NCBI GenBank assembly: GCA_902524245.1
Contig: CABZCN010000006.1
Span: 1-64,000 of the forward strand
Source: an uncultured Alphaproteobacteria bacterium
GTDB taxonomy: Bacteria > Pseudomonadota > Alphaproteobacteria > HIMB59
Direction of reading: 5' to 3'
DNA: 64,000 bases
A program made the position numbers and the translations under genes. Every line of letters begins with the position of its first letter. Within the stretch, counting starts at the first letter, position 1. Shown here one piece after another: positions 9,461 through 17,254 of the stretch. The notes under the pieces were generated by a model. The model saw nothing but the letters and a program-made list of their open reading frames with translations. It had not been told where the DNA came from and ran no database searches.

Positions 9461-10648
9461 GTGAAAGATGAATTTAATAGAATTGATAGATTGCCACCTT
9501 ACATATTTGGTGAAATAAATAAACTTAAAGCAAGGCTCAGAAAGAATGGCAAAGATATAATTGACTTCGGTATGGGTAACCCTGATATGCCTACACCAAA
9601 ACATATAAGAGACAAATTAAAAGAAGTTACTGATAAACCTGGTACTGGAAGATATTCAGTTAGTAAAGGAATAGCAGGTCTAAGAAAAGCTCAAGCAAAG
9701 TATTATCAAAAGAGATTTGGTGTAAAATTAAATCCAGATAATGAAGTTATTGTAACTTTGGGCTCAAAAGAGGGCTTAGCTAACTTAGCTCAAGCAATTT
9801 CAACTCCTGGTGACATCATTATCTCTCCCAATCCCTCATACCCAATACATCCATATGGATTTATTATAGCAGGAGCCTCTTTGAGACATTTACAGACAAT
9901 GAAAGATGGAGTTTTTGATCCTGAAACTTATCTTGAAAGATTAGACCGATCTATAAGAAATAGTACTCCGTCTCCAGTAGCTCTAATTGTATCCTTTCCA
10001 TCAAACCCAACAGCGCAAGTAGTTGACTTAAATTTTTACAAAGAAATAGTTAAGATGGCCTTGAAATATAATGTTTATGTTTTATCAGATCTTGCCTATG
10101 CTGAGATATACTTTGATAAGAAACCACCTCCTTCAGTTCTCCAAGTAAATAGAGCTAAAGAAATAGCTGTTGAATTTACTTCTATGTCAAAAACTTACGC
10201 TATGGCCGGTTGGAGAATAGGATTTGCTGTTGGAAATAAAAAACTAATTGAAGCTCTCACAAAAATTAAATCTTATTTAGACTATGGGGCTTATACACCG
10301 GTCCAAGTTGCAGCAGCAACAGCACTTAATGGTCCTCAAAGCTGTGTCTCAAGTATTCGAGCAACTTATAAGAGTAGGCGAGATGTTTTAGTTGCGTCTA
10401 TGTCAAGGTCTGGCTGGGATATACCTAGTCCTTCAGCTAGTATGTTTGCATGGGCTCCAATACCTAAAAAGTACCAAAATAAAGGATCTTTAAAATTTGC
10501 TAAAGATTTAATGGTTAAAGCAGATGTAGCTGTTTCTCCTGGCATTGCTTTTGGTGAATATGGTGAAGGTTTTGTTCGTATAGGACTGGTTGAAAATGAG
10601 CAAAGAATTCGTCAGGCAGCTAAAAATGTACGTAATTTAAAGCTTTAG
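9461..10648 (+). CDS. alaC: alanine-type aminotransferase (AlaC-like, class I)
   Basis: A PLP fold-type I aminotransferase of 395 residues in the AlaC/YfdZ group, which mainly makes alanine from pyruvate and glutamate. Visible motifs are FGMGNPDMPTP near 36-46, GSKEGLANL, SNPTAQ near 181-186 and SMSKTYAMAGWR with the PLP lysine K244. The start is GTG 9461. Upstream is a 118-bp gap, so it probably has its own promoter. Related LL-diaminopimelate aminotransferases share much of this sequence, but the N-terminal FNRIDRLPPYIFGEI stretch is typical of the alanine aminotransferase group. The symbol is a family-level assignment. Confidence 0.82.
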   Translation: MKDEFNRIDRLPPYIFGEINKLKARLRKNGKDIIDFGMGNPDMPTPKHIRDKLKEVTDKPGTGRYSVSKGIAGLRKAQAKYYQKRFGVKLNPDNEVIVTLGSKEGLANLAQAISTPGDIIISPNPSYPIHPYGFIIAGASLRHLQTMKDGVFDPETYLERLDRSIRNSTPSPVALIVSFPSNPTAQVVDLNFYKEIVKMALKYNVYVLSDLAYAEIYFDKKPPPSVLQVNRAKEIAVEFTSMSKTYAMAGWRIGFAVGNKKLIEALTKIKSYLDYGAYTPVQVAAATALNGPQSCVSSIRATYKSRRDVLVASMSRSGWDIPSPSASMFAWAPIPKKYQNKGSLKFAKDLMVKADVAVSPGIAFGEYGEGFVRIGLVENEQRIRQAAKNVRNLKL

Positions 10649-10724: not shown

Positions 10725-11771
10725 ATGATTAACACAAAAAAAATAGGCTCTGTTCTTAAAAACATCAATAATATTGATGAATTGAGCATTTCAGATGTAA
10801 TTGATTGTAATCAAGGTCAGTTAATTGCTGTTAAAGTAATTTCAGTCAATCCAAATTATAATAAATTGGAGTTAGTATCTGGCAGAATTACTGAATTAAC
10901 TGAGGGAGATATTATTGTTGGTGCATTGGGTAATAGAATTGCCTCCTCAGGAATGACAGGTTCTGTTCCTACTGAATTAAATAAACACGACAAAATTCAT
11001 ATTTTAAATTTAGGAGGAGTAATTGGTAATTGTAAAGATTTTAATATTCTTCTGGGACCAGCTACAGAATGTGAAGTCCTTGGATCGGTTGTAGATAATA
11101 GTAACAAACTATTGAATCTAGTTGATTATTCAAAAATTAAAGAAATGAAAATTAAAAATAAAGTACCATCTATTGCAGTCATAGGAACAGGTATCGACTC
11201 TGGTAAAACTACTGTTACATCCTTTATAATCAAAACTCTTAGTAATTATTTTAAGAAAATTAATGCATGTAAACTAGCAGGTACCGCTTCACAAAAAGAT
11301 TTATATTCTTATGAGGATAATGGTGCTTATAAAACATCAGATTTTGTAGATTACGGTCTGCCGAGTACCTGTATGAATGATAAAAAAACCATACAAAGTT
11401 GTTCAGCATCAATTATTAGCAATATGTCTGAGGACGCTGAGATAATTCTAATGGAATTAGGTGATGGTTATCATGGCGATTATGGAACTAAAGAAATAAT
11501 TCAAAATACTGATATTACAGAGTCAATTGAAGTTATTGTAATTTGCGCTTATGACGTATCAGGAGCAGTAAATATTATAGAAAATTTAAAATCAAATAAT
11601 TTAGATAACAAATTACTGATAATTAGTGGCCCTGTAACTAATAATGTATCTGCTTATAAGCAATCAATTGATAAGTTCTCTATACCTAATTCAGATTTTT
11701 TAAATATTTATAATTCAACTAACCATGTCAATGTTTTTGCTAAGATAATTAATAGGATTAATAATGATTAA
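10725..11771 (+). CDS. P-loop protein, DUF1611/DgcN-like, first gene of the ArgC/ArgB-like operon
   Basis: A 348-residue protein. Residues 1-140 look like a beta-rich domain; residues 148-348 form a P-loop domain with GTGIDSGKTT at 154-163 and MELGDGYHGDYG near 238-249. The arrangement recalls DUF1611 proteins, whose member DgcN is a D-glutamate N-acetyltransferase, and the dethiobiotin-synthetase fold. It overlaps the ArgC/LysY-like gene by eight bases, and an acetylglutamate-kinase-like gene follows, so it probably works in the same pathway. I infer that it supplies the N-acyl group or another activation at the start of the route, because no ArgA, ArgJ, LysX or LysW is visible nearby. Family membership is by eye and needs a profile search. 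Confidence 0.55.
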   Translation: MINTKKIGSVLKNINNIDELSISDVIDCNQGQLIAVKVISVNPNYNKLELVSGRITELTEGDIIVGALGNRIASSGMTGSVPTELNKHDKIHILNLGGVIGNCKDFNILLGPATECEVLGSVVDNSNKLLNLVDYSKIKEMKIKNKVPSIAVIGTGIDSGKTTVTSFIIKTLSNYFKKINACKLAGTASQKDLYSYEDNGAYKTSDFVDYGLPSTCMNDKKTIQSCSASIISNMSEDAEIILMELGDGYHGDYGTKEIIQNTDITESIEVIVICAYDVSGAVNIIENLKSNNLDNKLLIISGPVTNNVSAYKQSIDKFSIPNSDFLNIYNSTNHVNVFAKIINRINND

Positions 11772-12756
11772 AGTAGGCATAATTGGAGCAAATGGTTATT
11801 TAGGCGTTGAGTTAATACGAATTCTCTCTGTACATCCCGAAGTAAAATTATCAAAAATCTTTCAAAGAGAAATGGAAATAGATGAGGAATTTCCACATTT
11901 ACAGTCTTATAATTTAAAAGATTTACAGACATCTAATCTTGATGATTTTAAAAATCTTGATTGTGTTTTTTTATCACTACCTCATGGTTCAGCACATGAA
12001 TATGTCAAAGAATTATTATCAAAAGTTAAAATCATAGACCTAAGTTCAGATTTTAGAATTTCTAATCAAGAGGATTATAACAAATATTACAAATCAAATT
12101 TTGATGCTGACATTCAAAGTAAGTTTCAATACGGATTTATTGAAAATTCAATCGATGACATAAAAAAATCTTCTAACATATCCAATCCTGGTTGCTTTGC
12201 GCTAACGGCTCAACTATCTTTATTACCATTTCAATCTATAATTAAAAAAGTATCTATTACTGCTATTACTGGTTCAAGTGGTGGTGGTAAAAATCCTTCT
12301 TTGAAAAATCATCATTCTACAAGATCTAAAGATATTTTTTCATACAACATAAATTCACATAGACATTTAGCAGAAATTTATCAATCTTTTCCGAATTTAA
12401 AGGAGACTCTATCATTTGTTCCACTGTCAGGACCTTTCTCTAGAGGTATATATCTTACAAGTCACATAGAAATAAATGAAGTTTCAACTTATGAGACCTT
12501 AAATTCCATTTTAATTGATTTTTTTAAATCATCTCCTTTCATTAGAGTACAAGATAATACTAAGCTTTCTAACGTAGTAGGTTCAAATTATTGTGATATT
12601 TCAATGTCTTATAAAGATGAGAGACACTTCGTTGTAGAGGCTTGTTTAGATAACTTAGTTAAAGGTGCCTCAGGTAACGCTATTGAGTGTATGAATATAA
12701 TCTTTGATCTTGATCAAACTTTGGGATTGAAACAAATGATACCTTTATATCTATAA
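11764..12756 (+). CDS. N-acyl-gamma-glutamyl-phosphate / aminoadipyl-phosphate reductase (ArgC/LysY family)
   Basis: A 330-residue NADPH-dependent acyl-phosphate reductase. It has a Rossmann motif GANGYLGVEL (8-17), SSDFR (94-98), the catalytic cysteine in NPGCF (C144), the HRHLAEI histidines (199 and 201) and the C-terminal DNLVKGASGNA. Residues about 170-190 read GSSGGGKNPSLKNHHSTRS. As I recall the families, this HHxxRS form is closer to LysY (the LysW-carried aminoadipate/glutamate route) than to standard ArgC. It overlaps both neighbours, by eight bases upstream and one base downstream. Reduction of an N-blocked glutamyl or aminoadipyl phosphate to the semialdehyde is well supported; which substrate is not. 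Confidence 0.82.
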   Translation: MIKVGIIGANGYLGVELIRILSVHPEVKLSKIFQREMEIDEEFPHLQSYNLKDLQTSNLDDFKNLDCVFLSLPHGSAHEYVKELLSKVKIIDLSSDFRISNQEDYNKYYKSNFDADIQSKFQYGFIENSIDDIKKSSNISNPGCFALTAQLSLLPFQSIIKKVSITAITGSSGGGKNPSLKNHHSTRSKDIFSYNINSHRHLAEIYQSFPNLKETLSFVPLSGPFSRGIYLTSHIEINEVSTYETLNSILIDFFKSSPFIRVQDNTKLSNVVGSNYCDISMSYKDERHFVVEACLDNLVKGASGNAIECMNIIFDLDQTLGLKQMIPLYL

Positions 12757-13604
12757 TGAAAAATCAAAGTTTTTACCAATCGATATTACAAAATTCCATT
12801 CTTGTCATAAAAGTAAGTGGTAAGATATGTGATAACCAAGATAATATCGATAATGTTATAAGCGACATAAAAGAATTATTGAATTCTATTTCGAAGTTAA
12901 AAGTTGTTTTAGTCTTTGGATTTGGACGACAGCTAGATAACTATATGATCAATGTACATGGTATTGAGCCAAAAAAAATAAATGGTAGAAGAGTAACATC
13001 TCCCACAGACATAGAGGCAGCCAAAAAAATATCTGGTCAAATTTTAATAGATATTTTTAGTTTGAGCTCACGATATAATATCAGAAATTTTCCAATTCCT
13101 ATTTCAAAGAAAGACTTTATTGCAGCAAAAAAAAGAGATGTAGTTGATAACATTGATTATGGTCAAGTAGGGGACGTCGTTTCAGTTGATGCTTTACAAA
13201 TTAAAAACCTATTGAAAGAACATGATATGATAATTATGCCAAGTTTAGTTTTAGATAAAAACACATCTGAAGTATTGAATGTAAATGCAGATACAATAGC
13301 TACAGAATTGGCGATTAATCTTTCTGCAAGTAAATTAATTTTTATTTCAGATGTTGCATATATTAAAGATTTAGAGGGAAAAAGAATTTCTTCTGTTGAT
13401 GAAAATGTTGCAAAAAAACTTTTTGAAGAAAATATTATATCTGAAGGTATGGTTGTTAAAGTTGAAAATTCATTAAAGGCTTTAAACAAGGGTATTCAAA
13501 AGATTCATATTATTAGTGGAGAAATAAAAAATGCCTTAATAAATGAACTTGAAACTGAAGAAGGTATCGGTACAGTTTTTCAAAAAAACGAACTTGAATA
13601 CTAG
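12756..13604 (+). CDS. acetylglutamate-kinase-like amino acid kinase (ArgB/LysZ family)
   Basis: A 282-residue amino-acid-kinase fold protein expected to phosphorylate the side-chain carboxylate of an N-blocked glutamate or aminoadipate. Seen: VIKVSG at 17-22, NGRRVT at 76-81 (GLRVT in ArgB), GQVGDV at 136-141, VNADTIA at 176-182 and TEEGIGTVF near the C-terminus. The loop that is usually VHGGGPQ reads VFGFGRQ (53-59), so one of the glycines that orient the substrate is a phenylalanine. It shares one base with the reductase gene and overlaps the convergent lyase-like gene by four. I leave the symbol empty because the altered loop and the LysY-like partner make the substrate uncertain. Confidence 0.75.
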   Translation: MKNQSFYQSILQNSILVIKVSGKICDNQDNIDNVISDIKELLNSISKLKVVLVFGFGRQLDNYMINVHGIEPKKINGRRVTSPTDIEAAKKISGQILIDIFSLSSRYNIRNFPIPISKKDFIAAKKRDVVDNIDYGQVGDVVSVDALQIKNLLKEHDMIIMPSLVLDKNTSEVLNVNADTIATELAINLSASKLIFISDVAYIKDLEGKRISSVDENVAKKLFEENIISEGMVVKVENSLKALNKGIQKIHIISGEIKNALINELETEEGIGTVFQKNELEY

Positions 13605-15121
13605 TTTTTTAACTTAAAAACAATTCCAATAATTTCTTTTTCTTCATCGTCCCAAGGTCCTTCAGCATAATAATTACCGTCTTTATTTTTTGTTGTGGAA
13701 CCAACAATTTCCATTGGTTCAGTTTCTCCATCTGAGGCTAGGTCTAAATTTGCACTAATCAAAATTAAACCATCTTCTGTTTTGAAATTTATTTTTTCTC
13801 TATTCTTGCTTTGAATATCATTTTCCATTTCAAATGATTTATTTAATTTGGTAAATGTTAGCATTCCGTTTCTAATAGTTGCTTGATCTGAACCTAAATA
13901 ATCATCTTGTTCTAGTTTTCCATTATCATCGTATATTTTCCAATACCACATTAACTCATAATCGCCGTCTTCAAATTTTTCATTTGAGGCAATGGATGAA
14001 TATTTTGATTTATTTATTATAACTTGAGAATAATCAGACTTCACATCTTTTTCTCTATTAGAATAAATCCATTCTGTATCAATAACAGCTAATGATTTAG
14101 GGGCTGATTGTTTAATTAATTCGTCGCAATTATAGCCTAAATTTTCAATTTTGAGTTTTTCGCATGACCTTGCTAGACTCAATTCATCATAGGCCACAGC
14201 CATTTCATGACCCCTGAATTTTGTATATATGCCGTATTTATAGTCCCAAACCAAGTCCTCATTTGCATTAAAGCCTGGCATCTTGCTCCAATTTGTTCTG
14301 CCTTTATGATCGATTATTAAATTACCGTTAATCCAAACTTTTATGTATCCTTTCTCAATATCGTCGTCAAAATTTATATTTTGAACTACATCAATCCATT
14401 TATCTTTTTCAATTTCATTCCATTCTAAAGCTAAAAGTTCTAAGTCTTTTAAATGACAGTATTTTCCAGAATTACAATAAGGGTTATCATCATCTACAAT
14501 TTGTATACCCATACTAGTTTCAGTTCTGAAGACCAGGCCAAACTCTTTCCTAAAACCAAATCCATGCATAGGAGGAGTGAATTCATTTCTTGTATGCCAT
14601 TGCTGAATATATACTAATTCAGGCGACCATTCTTCAAGTTCGCTGACTATTTTGAATGAGAAAGATGTCCAAGCATTATCTTTAAATTTTCCATAATAGT
14701 TAATGGGAGAAAATTCTGCTCTAGTATAATCGCCACTATCAGGTTCTCCTCTTGCACAGTCTGCTTTAATTCCGATACAGTCTTTTCCTACTCTAAAAAC
14801 AAGAGCTGTTTCACCATATCTTGTATCTTCAGTTAAGACAGATAGAATATTATAATCTATCTTTTTCATTATATTTTTATATGTCGAGTATCTATTTTGT
14901 AAATTTTTACTTCCAAGCTCAGAACCACCTGGAATATTTAAAGTTGTATCTTCACCTGCTAATCCTGCATTTTTCAATAGAAAGACATCGCCATTATTAG
15001 TACTTGTTAAGTTAGATGTTGACTCTTCTGAGGAACTAGAAATTTTTCCGTCATCGCCAATAGTTAGTCCTAACAAAATTTTTGGTAATAAAAATAGAAT
15101 TAAAATGAATAACTTAATCAT
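13601..15121 (-). CDS. secreted polysaccharide-lyase-like protein
   Basis: A 506-residue protein with an N-terminal signal peptide (hydrophobic 3-19) followed by a Ser/Thr/Asn-rich stretch. Residues about 85-330 resemble the concanavalin-like polysaccharide lyase domain (PF14099, heparin/glucuronan-lyase-like): IQQWHTRNE, FGLVFRTE, WIDVVQNINF, GYIKVWINGNLI and a YGIYTKFRG strand near the end. Residues about 345-506 form an extra beta-rich domain I do not recognise. It may cleave or bind a uronic-acid-containing polysaccharide outside the cell. A secreted carbohydrate enzyme is unexpected inside an amino-acid gene cluster and in a compact genome. Catalytic residues cannot be assigned by eye. 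Confidence 0.6.
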   Translation of the reverse strand: MIKLFILILFLLPKILLGLTIGDDGKISSSSEESTSNLTSTNNGDVFLLKNAGLAGEDTTLNIPGGSELGSKNLQNRYSTYKNIMKKIDYNILSVLTEDTRYGETALVFRVGKDCIGIKADCARGEPDSGDYTRAEFSPINYYGKFKDNAWTSFSFKIVSELEEWSPELVYIQQWHTRNEFTPPMHGFGFRKEFGLVFRTETSMGIQIVDDDNPYCNSGKYCHLKDLELLALEWNEIEKDKWIDVVQNINFDDDIEKGYIKVWINGNLIIDHKGRTNWSKMPGFNANEDLVWDYKYGIYTKFRGHEMAVAYDELSLARSCEKLKIENLGYNCDELIKQSAPKSLAVIDTEWIYSNREKDVKSDYSQVIINKSKYSSIASNEKFEDGDYELMWYWKIYDDNGKLEQDDYLGSDQATIRNGMLTFTKLNKSFEMENDIQSKNREKINFKTEDGLILISANLDLASDGETEPMEIVGSTTKNKDGNYYAEGPWDDEEKEIIGIVFKLKN

Positions 15122-15162
15122 TGAAATATTATTTTTAAAATATTTTATAAATAAAAAAAAAA

Positions 15163-16317
15163 TTACAACGATTTAGAGATTATATCTAAACCATTATTTA
15201 ACTCTTTTTTGTTAATTATTAGAGGAGGGGTTATTCTTATAATGTTACCCTGAATAAGTGTAGTGATAAGTCCATTATTAGCCATTTTTGTAAATGTTTT
15301 TAAGGCAATTTCATTCGTTTTAAATTCTATACCAGCCATGAGACCTAAGCATCTGGTATCAACAATTTTATCTTTATGATTGTTATGCATTTTTTTAAGT
15401 AAATTTGATAAAAATTTACCATTAATTTTCACTTTATTTAAAAAAGCCTTTTTGTTTATAGATTTCAATACATTATATGAAACTCTAGTTTGAAGCATAC
15501 CACCGCCAAATGTAGAACCATGAAAACCAGTTGAAATCATCTTAGATATATATTTTTTTACTATTGTTGCGCCAATAGGAATACCAGAACCTAATCCTTT
15601 AGCTGAGGTTATAATATCCGGATTAACACCATAATGTTTGTATGCAAAAATTTTTCCAGTTCGACCTATACCGCCTTGTATTTCATCTCCGATAAGTAAA
15701 ACTTTCTTATTTATACATATCTCTTTTATAGCTTTAGCGAAATTCTTACTGCAAATATTTATTCCACCATCTCCTTGAACAAATTCTATTATTATTGCTA
15801 CCGTTTTTTTATTTACTAATTCTTTGAGATGAGAGACATCATTAAATTTACAAAACTTTACTTTACCTGGAACAGGCCCTATGTCAGATTTGTATTTTTT
15901 ATTACTGCCGACTGATAAGGCTCCAATTGTTCTTCCATGAAAAGAGGAAGTCATAGCAATAATTTCATCTTTGCCCTTTTTACTTCCATAGTTTCTTGCT
16001 ATTTTTAATGCAGCTTCAATGCTTTCTGCACCTGAATTAGAAAAGAACACATCACCTTTGTTAGAATTTTCAGATAATAATTTAGATAATTTAGTCTTGA
16101 ACTCATGCATTTGAGAACCCGATAAATGAGTAATGCCAGTTTTTACTTGATCTTGTAAACTTTTTCTTACAACTGGGTGATTATAGCCAAGAGAATTGAC
16201 TGCAACTCCTGCTGAGAAATCCAATAATTTTCTTTTATCAGAGGTGTATAAATAACAACCATTACCTTTTACTACTCTAAAATTACTAAACTTGTATGTT
16301 TTTAATAAGTTATTCAT
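15163..16317 (-). CDS. argD: class III aminotransferase (acetylornithine aminotransferase-like)
   Basis: A PLP-dependent class III aminotransferase of 384 residues, the ArgD/LysJ size. Seen: SNSGAESIEAALK (94-106), SSFHGRT (124-130), IGDEIQGGIGRTG (209-221) and the PLP lysine K240 in TSAKGLGSG. It transfers an amino group from glutamate to an N-blocked semialdehyde, which is exactly the step after the reductase encoded at 11764. It is on the opposite strand with the lyase-like gene between, so it is not in the same transcript, but the four enzymes make a consecutive route. The usual DEVQ/DEVM is DEIQ. The symbol is family-level; a LysJ role is possible. Confidence 0.82.
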   Translation of the reverse strand: MNNLLKTYKFSNFRVVKGNGCYLYTSDKRKLLDFSAGVAVNSLGYNHPVVRKSLQDQVKTGITHLSGSQMHEFKTKLSKLLSENSNKGDVFFSNSGAESIEAALKIARNYGSKKGKDEIIAMTSSFHGRTIGALSVGSNKKYKSDIGPVPGKVKFCKFNDVSHLKELVNKKTVAIIIEFVQGDGGINICSKNFAKAIKEICINKKVLLIGDEIQGGIGRTGKIFAYKHYGVNPDIITSAKGLGSGIPIGATIVKKYISKMISTGFHGSTFGGGMLQTRVSYNVLKSINKKAFLNKVKINGKFLSNLLKKMHNNHKDKIVDTRCLGLMAGIEFKTNEIALKTFTKMANNGLITTLIQGNIIRITPPLIINKKELNNGLDIISKSL

Positions 16318-16360: not shown

Positions 16361-17254
16361 TCAAAATCTCCACTGGCTTATTTTATTCATAAGAAAATCT
16401 CTAAAAGCTATTAATTTTAAACTTCCTTTTAGATTTTCATGATAAACCATATGAACATCGTAACTTGGTCCTTCTATATCTGGTAATACTTTAACAAGAT
16501 GGGCTTTATGTTGAGCCATATAATCAGGTAATGCAGCTAATCCTGCACCAGTTTCAACAGCTACTAACAAACCATATAGATTATTAATTGTAATATGAGG
16601 TCTTCTATTTTTTTGGTTTTTTTTAACACCAGTTTTTAGTATCCAATTGGTATCAGAAAGGGGGGATGGTTTCCCAATGCCATATGTGATTAATCTATGA
16701 CTATTAAGCTCTGATCTTCTCAAAGGCATACCCATTTCATTTATATAATTCGCTGATCCATAAATATGGTATTTGATTGTTGCTATGTGCTTTGAAACTA
16801 AATCTAAATGTCTTGGTTTTCTCATCCATAAACCAATATCATAATCTTGGCGAAGCATATCTTGCTCATCTTCAGAATAGTTTAGTTTAAGATTAATTTC
16901 TGGGTATTCATGAATAAATTCATTGATTCTTGGGCTAAGCCACATCGATCCAAAAGCAACTGTAGTATTAATAGAGAGGTTACCAGTGGGAACTGACTTA
17001 TATTCAACTATCTTTTTTTCAATAGAATTTAAATCAGCAAATATTTTTTCAGTTTCTTCAAAAAGATAAGAACCTTGCTCTGTAAGAGTTATACCTTTTG
17101 TGTGTCTTTTAAATAGTTTGGTTTTTAAACTATGCTCAAGAGATTGAATTTGTCTAGTAATAGCAGATTGACTGAGGTGAATAGTATCCATAGCTCTAGA
17201 GATGCTACCAGCTGTAGCTACGTGATAAAATGTTTTAAGTCTATCCCAATCCAT
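16361..17254 (-). CDS. LysR-family transcriptional regulator
   Basis: A 297-residue LysR-type regulator. The N-terminal winged helix-turn-helix spans residues 1-60 with SISRAMDTIHLSQSAITRQI and LFKRHTKGITLTEQG; the co-inducer-binding domain covers about 90-290. It starts 14 bases inside the 3' end of the TolC-like gene upstream on the same strand, so it may be read through from that gene. It lies 43 bases from the class III aminotransferase start but is transcribed in the same direction, not divergently, so its target cannot be read from the layout. Confidence 0.88.
   Translation of the reverse strand: MDWDRLKTFYHVATAGSISRAMDTIHLSQSAITRQIQSLEHSLKTKLFKRHTKGITLTEQGSYLFEETEKIFADLNSIEKKIVEYKSVPTGNLSINTTVAFGSMWLSPRINEFIHEYPEINLKLNYSEDEQDMLRQDYDIGLWMRKPRHLDLVSKHIATIKYHIYGSANYINEMGMPLRRSELNSHRLITYGIGKPSPLSDTNWILKTGVKKNQKNRRPHITINNLYGLLVAVETGAGLAALPDYMAQHKAHLVKVLPDIEGPSYDVHMVYHENLKGSLKLIAFRDFLMNKISQWRF

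Follow-up and report, generated by a model that had tools for sequence, protein, structure and literature searches.

The window analysed here (a stretch of 64,000 nucleotides, part of a 1.37-Mb genome, G000, that is 94.6% complete) carries a three-gene operon and a convergent aminotransferase gene that, as judged from gene content and sequence relationships, most likely encode the part of arginine biosynthesis that leads to ornithine in marine bacteria of the HIMB59 type. The operon begins with a gene for a 348-amino acid P-loop protein (10,725–11,771, + strand), followed, with an 8-base overlap, by a gene for an ArgC-family N-acyl-glutamyl-phosphate reductase (11,764–12,756, + strand) and, with a 1-base overlap, by a gene for an ArgB-like N-acylglutamate kinase of the amino-acid kinase type (12,756–13,604, + strand); the gene for an ArgD-like class III aminotransferase (15,163–16,317, - strand) is its convergent partner. 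An earlier sequence-only reading had described this layout, and the open reading frames and both overlaps are as it claimed. The P-loop protein is the probable glutamate-capping enzyme, and very probably either caps glutamate or is needed for capping, because its gene has a distribution opposite to that of ArgJ in the genus and heads arginine operons in a second lineage that lacks ArgJ. On the same grounds the earlier proposal that it supplies the first step is very likely correct, and the route is, as suggested there, non-standard, ArgJ being replaced by the P-loop protein in the operon. Arginine, lysine or a new diamino acid had all been considered as products; ornithine and arginine are the most likely, because ornithine transcarbamoylase (OTC) and ArgG are present and relatives of the P-loop gene lie in arginine operons, while lysine and a new diamino acid were not borne out.

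In the proposed pathway, the P-loop protein would N-cap glutamate, instead of ArgJ or the GNAT-type ArgA, with a group that carries a carboxylate, for which succinyl, from succinyl-CoA or from succinate and ATP, would be the simplest candidate. To judge from their families, the kinase would phosphorylate the gamma-carboxylate, the ArgC-type enzyme would reduce the acyl-glutamyl phosphate and the ArgD-type enzyme would carry out the transamination. Ornithine would then be freed by a desuccinylase, for which DapE of the lysine pathway is the most likely candidate in a genome as streamlined as this, and OTC and ArgG, with ArgH, would complete the synthesis (the genus search covered OTC and ArgG). 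The genes, their linkage, the fold, the trees and the exclusion with ArgJ are computed; every catalytic step is one that we infer. The kinase, reductase, aminotransferase, OTC and ArgG steps are the same as in the cyclic ArgJ/ArgBCD pathway, expected in ArgJ-bearing genomes of the order, from which the route in the window differs in having a P-loop protein for ArgJ and an ArgC of another clade and signature.

N-acylglutamate synthases covered in the available sections of a review include GNAT-type forms of N-acetylglutamate synthase (NAGS), ArgJ and C-NAGS, and the term P-loop is absent from the text of the review (PMC4490483); a Cabys_1732/Bacteroides-type N-acylglutamate synthase appears in the accessible text of another paper (PMC7311316). 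No title on a P-loop enzyme for this step was recognised in the literature covered, subscription papers lying mostly outside that coverage, and searching on DgcN/DUF1611 and on HIMB59 arginine metabolism gave no lead. The HIMB59/AEGEAN-169 marine clade, to which we assign the genome of the window, is described as ubiquitous in a paper whose available text does not mention arginine (PMC10308909). If the role given to the P-loop protein is correct, the committed step of arginine synthesis would have been solved independently once more, by an enzyme with a P-loop fold, streamlined genomes would be tied to enzyme sharing across the lysine and arginine pathways, and a testable function would be gained for an unnamed family of several alphaproteobacterial families and a Priestia phosphonate-type cluster. 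Pathway annotation could also wrongly label members of the clade as arginine auxotrophs.

Distribution of the P-loop gene and of ArgJ

Among 162 genomes of the order (52 of the genus of the window and 110 others), ArgJ (PF01960) is present in none of the 52 genus genomes and in 82 of the 110 others, while the P-loop gene is present in 42 of the 52 and in none of the 110. The 42 carriers compare with 40.4 ± 2.9 predicted from summed completeness if the gene were universal in the genus. ArgJ was also unmatched by profile search in G000 itself, in line with the earlier claim that the usual first enzyme is lacking; the search for known first enzymes comprised ArgJ and GNATs of PF00583, with C-NAGS and the Bacteroides-type synthase outside its scope. 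The P-loop, argC and kinase genes are grouped in nine other genus loci (L035–L043), at 62–86%, 57–71% and 64–86% identity to those of the window, respectively, with argD convergent beside the kinase gene, and conservation of the arrangement across these nine loci rules out chance. The operon genes of one of them (L038, genome G117) are in split pieces in the assembly, possibly through sequencing error. A scan of the genome collection for P-loop relatives, with two N-terminal peptides as query, returned 40 loci, all at least 63% identical.

The window reductase reaches 298.4 bits with TIGR01850 (argC; equivalog cut-off 233.6), the kinase 91 bits with AA_kinase (cut-off 24.9) and the aminotransferase 329 bits with Aminotran_3 (cut-off 30.5). 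The C-terminal ELETEEGIGT of the kinase equals the published arginine-binding motif of N-acetylglutamate kinase (NAGK) and NAGS at all but one position, and Pfam scanning found no acetyltransferase (GNAT) domain in this protein. No second argB was found in G000, whose three further AA_kinase genes code for ProB, aspartate kinase and PyrH, every one scoring over one cut-off or more. Nor did a second argC exceed the cut-off, the sole other match to the argC profile being aspartate-semialdehyde dehydrogenase. A complete argJBCD set elsewhere, named in the sequence-only reading as evidence that would overturn it, was looked for in G000 as argJ, argB and argC, and the outcome left that reading standing.

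G000 has two OTC-family genes, one PyrB and the other of the ornithine type. The OTC-type enzymes of G000 and of G111, a single-contig genome of the genus, score 286.7 and 275.5 bits with OTC, slightly under the cut-off of 306, and an AOTC-type carbamoyltransferase was rejected for both (about 102 bits to AOTC). ArgG is over cut-off in nine of the ten genus genomes tested. A cluster making some other diamino acid or a secondary metabolite, in an organism that imports arginine, would suit the occurrence of a relative in the Priestia phosphonate-type cluster and of others beside ABC transporter genes; it is made very improbable by the retention of OTC and ArgG, by an operon that holds the only argB and argC of the genome, by a genus frequency as expected of a universal gene and by the arginine operons of a second lineage.

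This second lineage emerged from 385 alphaproteobacterial genomes searched with a profile of eight genus sequences, which found matches in 23: four belong to the genus, three give only weak matches (best E 0.002–0.007) and 16 hold distant relatives. In two loci of another alphaproteobacterial family (L227 and L228, from genomes G477 and G396), P-loop, argC, argB, argD and argF genes run in one direction, the P-loop protein being 35–36% identical to the genus type. In L227 the run continues beyond argF with two small genes, argG, a gene for a membrane protein and argH, the last of which is cut by the end of the locus. The argF of both loci and the argG are over their own cut-offs, the partial argH matches TIGR00838 along its length, and the L227 kinase is over the argB cut-off (TIGR00761; 154.4 bits, cut-off 151.3). 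Profile search found no ArgJ in G477 or G396, both 99% complete, whereas the same search found it kept in all 14 genomes that have only other P-loop relatives (among the ArgJ-tested genomes, G386 and G397 are 10% and 8% contaminated).

Operon-type P-loop proteins group across the two lineages in a single clade (97/95), separate from the 19 other rows of the tree, of which the L239 and Priestia proteins, both on very long branches, are nearest; G396 has one operon-type P-loop protein and one of another type. The ArgCs of the two lineages likewise form one clade (99/95), as do their kinases (97/98, in a tree with very long branches), a pattern that fits a single P-loop/argC/kinase cassette that may have been moved or inherited as a unit.

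Fold and family of the P-loop protein

An N-terminal beta-rich domain (about residues 1–140) and a BioD/DUF1611-like P-loop domain (about 148–346) are predicted for the P-loop protein, with a mean pLDDT of 90.2 for an AlphaFold2 model built with 25 sequences (61.9 with eight). Among the best 50 of 1667 Foldseek matches, the best PDB entries are HypB and dethiobiotin synthetase (E 6.7e-07, query TM about 0.4), those that follow HypB and BioD are mostly SRP-type GTPases, and no entry is named DUF1611. The best solved-structure match of a 25-row profile is BioD (E 0.0027), with the Walker A loop, Lys183 and Asp192 aligned, and that of an 8-row profile is cyclic 2,3-diphosphoglycerate synthetase (E 0.034). 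Arg54, Arg71, Lys161, Lys183, Asp192, Asp198, Thr215, Glu244 and Gly302 are invariant in all 25 family rows; Lys161 is presumably the Walker A lysine, and Lys183, Asp192 and Glu244 presumably correspond to the substrate lysine and metal ligands of BioD.

BioD is the best match by the 25-row profile and among the best by fold, and a BioD-like, ATP-driven reaction that would place a carboxylate-bearing cap (succinate, or CO2 as carbamate) on glutamate has to be considered. A carbamate cap would need no deacylase, which would explain why both ArgE and ArgJ are missing. This version is quite unlikely. The query-normalised TM-score to BioD is 0.33–0.40, and the P-loop protein has an extra N-terminal domain and no biotin context. 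To our knowledge, no arginine pathway has a carboxylate-bearing cap that is installed on the amino group with ATP.

The window protein scores 25.0 bits with AAA_26 in Pfam, under the cut-off of 27, is assigned to no NCBIfam family by profile scan and is unmatched by DUF1611 (PF07755) at E ≤ 0.1. DUF1611 is matched at this threshold by 17 of 25 family members and is the best Pfam match of several relatives, including that of L227 (20.9 bits, E 0.00026). Membership was rejected, relatives reaching at most 21 bits, where scores are shown, against a cut-off of 25; for bioD (TIGR00347) the best E among the 25 is only 0.017. The profile check proposed by the sequence-only reading therefore left DUF1611 and BioD both under cut-off, and its label ‘DUF1611/DgcN-like’ holds at the superfamily level but not as family membership: by sequence comparison the protein is BioD/DUF1611-like at the level of the superfamily only.

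The window protein has a P-loop domain in common with DUF1611/DgcN, and possibly glutamate N-acylation as well. The DUF1611 matches among relatives suit a P-loop protein that, in analogy to DgcN, would use acetyl-CoA and act as an N-acetylglutamate synthase, feeding the usual N-acetylated intermediates. DgcN is reportedly an acetyl-CoA-dependent N-acetyltransferase that acts on D-glutamate. The window protein, in contrast, is under the family cut-off, as are its relatives, and is found in another genomic setting, and such a synthase is unlikely, also in view of the reductase and deacylase evidence below. According to the available part of the source, the DgcN–DgcA pathway converts D-Glu to L-Glu (PMC10845958).

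NCBIfam profiles of helper P-loop proteins such as MobB are matched by 16 of the 25 members (best E 1.3e-06) and, with a small GNAT conserved in G000 and G111, would suit an accessory protein (activator, channeling or regulatory NTPase) that leaves the capping of glutamate to an unrecognised acyltransferase elsewhere. A purely accessory role is decidedly improbable: the P-loop gene heads arg genes in two lineages and is present where ArgJ is missing, and Arg54, Arg71, Lys183, Asp192 and Glu244 do not vary in the family. G000 and G111 have two GNATs of PF00583 each, a RimI-like one and another that is unassigned, all under cut-offs. The small GNAT in these two genomes lies beside a cysE-like gene (L257:1456–1881, L258:1459–1905), with no named family over cut-off.

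Reductase signatures, the cap and its removal

The window ArgC has the motif NPGCF with Cys144, which we take to be the catalytic cysteine, an HHSTR loop (183–187, ending in Arg187) and FVPLSGPF (218–225). It was compared in 21 rows, six from P-loop operons and 15 references: three from Bacteroidota operons headed by a GNAT gene, three from Streptomyces LysW clusters, E. coli, Ilyobacter (beside argJ), Azospirillum, Paracoccus, Amphritea, Monoglobus and three from f2, an ArgJ-bearing family of the same order. References were labelled acetyl, succinyl or LysW from gene context or general knowledge, with Monoglobus unassigned. Arginine occupies the Arg187 position in 12 of the 12 operon, Bacteroidota and LysW rows but in only one of the nine others (Paracoccus), while a ‘PH’ histidine is present in all nine of the latter and in none of the 12. 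In the phylogeny, which the sequence-only reading had proposed as a check, the ArgCs of P-loop operons, that of the window included, join those of Bacteroidota (99/98), away from f2 and apart from the LysW-type rows. As these rows lie elsewhere in a tree with a weak backbone, their arginine may have arisen by convergence, a point in favour of reading the signature as functional.

The shared residues favour a cap whose acyl group bears a free carboxylate, and acetyl is probably not the group used. Succinyl, put forward tentatively, is preferred to acetyl because the ArgC groups with those of Bacteroidota and has the two signatures common to non-acetyl ArgCs. It would also be economical, since N-succinyl substrates are what DapE and ArgD-type enzymes act on in lysine synthesis. 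Most Bacteroidetes appear, from the accessible text of one study, to use succinylated arginine intermediates (PMC7311316). Their N-succinyl pathway has the closest ArgC group and common loop residues, but its operon is headed by a GNAT gene and it uses AOTC, in contrast to the P-loop protein and OTC-type enzyme found here.

The LysX/LysW pathway has the same logic of capped kinase and reductase substrates, and its ArgCs also have the loop arginine and lack the ‘PH’ histidine, as would be expected if a LysW-like amino-group carrier were used and the P-loop protein replaced LysX. Such a pathway is scarcely probable at all. No small open reading frame with two CxxC motifs was found in the window, L035, L036 or L227, and the single such frame in L228 is unconvincing (no search for LysW covered the whole genome); the three-gene operon has no match to an ATP-grasp ligase in Pfam and NCBIfam scans, and the ArgC groups with Bacteroidota and not with the LysW-type rows. 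A LysW-type carrier near the operon was rejected, the small-open reading frame scan giving no convincing candidate, and the carrier function that had been offered as an alternative role for the P-loop protein found no support there.

For removal of a succinyl cap, DapE is the likely enzyme. A DapE gene is present in all ten genus genomes checked (as fragments in G119 and G150); the G000 copy is over both DapE cut-offs, and the other nine are 69–97% identical. It lies behind dapD in G000 and G111 (dapD profile-scored in G000 only). Other M20 genes are scattered among the ten genomes, with two more in G000 and one each in G111 and G116. A conserved ArgE in the genus was rejected, the conserved M20 being DapE. 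In the second lineage, an M20 amidohydrolase gene is the next gene upstream in L227, and an M20 gene lies nearby in L228, past one opposite-strand gene; M20 deacylases near P-loop relatives are consistent with, though no proof of, an N-acylating function. In L239 (8333–10,704), from an unrelated alphaproteobacterium, the gene for a P-loop relative and one for an M20-type hydrolase have a one-base overlap.

Several points weigh against a P-loop capping enzyme with a succinyl-type cap. If the cassette was moved or inherited as a unit, its exclusion with ArgJ reflects about two evolutionary events rather than 52, and the number of independent correlations with the lack of ArgJ is likewise about two. 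The window kinase is under the argB cut-off (TIGR00761; 126.8 bits, cut-off 151.3) and the aminotransferase just under that for argD (TIGR00707; 393.8 bits, cut-off 410.05). Two genus genomes, G126 and G139 (91% and 94% complete; the two looked at more closely of the ten without the P-loop gene), lack both this gene and ArgC yet have OTC-family and ArgG matches, so that assembly gap and real loss, either of which would account for the absence, are indistinguishable. A GNAT outside PF00583, or a 142-amino acid unassigned GNAT, could acylate glutamate. The ArgC residues in common with Bacteroidota may come from ancestry rather than substrate, and the window ArgC scores above the cut-off of the N-acetyl argC profile, as an N-acetylglutamate synthase analogous to DgcN would lead one to expect; against that enzyme, the ArgC signatures and phylogeny indicate a non-acetyl cap and the genus has no conserved ArgE. 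The sole reason for giving this role to DapE is that no other M20 gene is conserved, and G000 itself carries a further ArgE/DapE-like M20 (L106), below every one of its cut-offs, with no counterpart in G111, where the only other M20 is allantoate-amidohydrolase-like.

Neighbouring genes and other settings of P-loop relatives

A polysaccharide-lyase-like gene (13,601–15,121, - strand) lies between the kinase and argD genes, outside the module, and has no counterpart at E ≤ 1e-10 in any of the other nine genus loci. An AlaC/LL-DAP-aminotransferase-like gene (9461–10,648, + strand), 76 bases upstream of the operon, is found upstream in all nine and is possibly linked to it. The gene for a LysR-family protein (16,361–17,254, - strand) adjoins argD, as in all nine other loci, making this protein a possible regulator of the arg module.

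More distant P-loop relatives were found on plasmids. In Priestia megaterium (L280; NZ_CP085446.1), a relative annotated as hypothetical and 27% identical to that of L227 has as neighbours OTC, two ATP-grasp genes, M20, LLM oxidoreductase and PEP mutase genes in a phosphonate-type cluster. In Paracoccus and Sulfitobacter (L277, L278 and L279), relatives precede an ABC transporter gene, and alpha/beta hydrolase, S8 peptidase and sigma-factor genes are found near those of the Paracoccus plasmids; these loci possibly encode an uncharacterised export or modification system. In the NCBI annotation of plasmid relatives, two are named ‘DUF1611 domain-containing protein’ and one ‘dethiobiotin synthase’.

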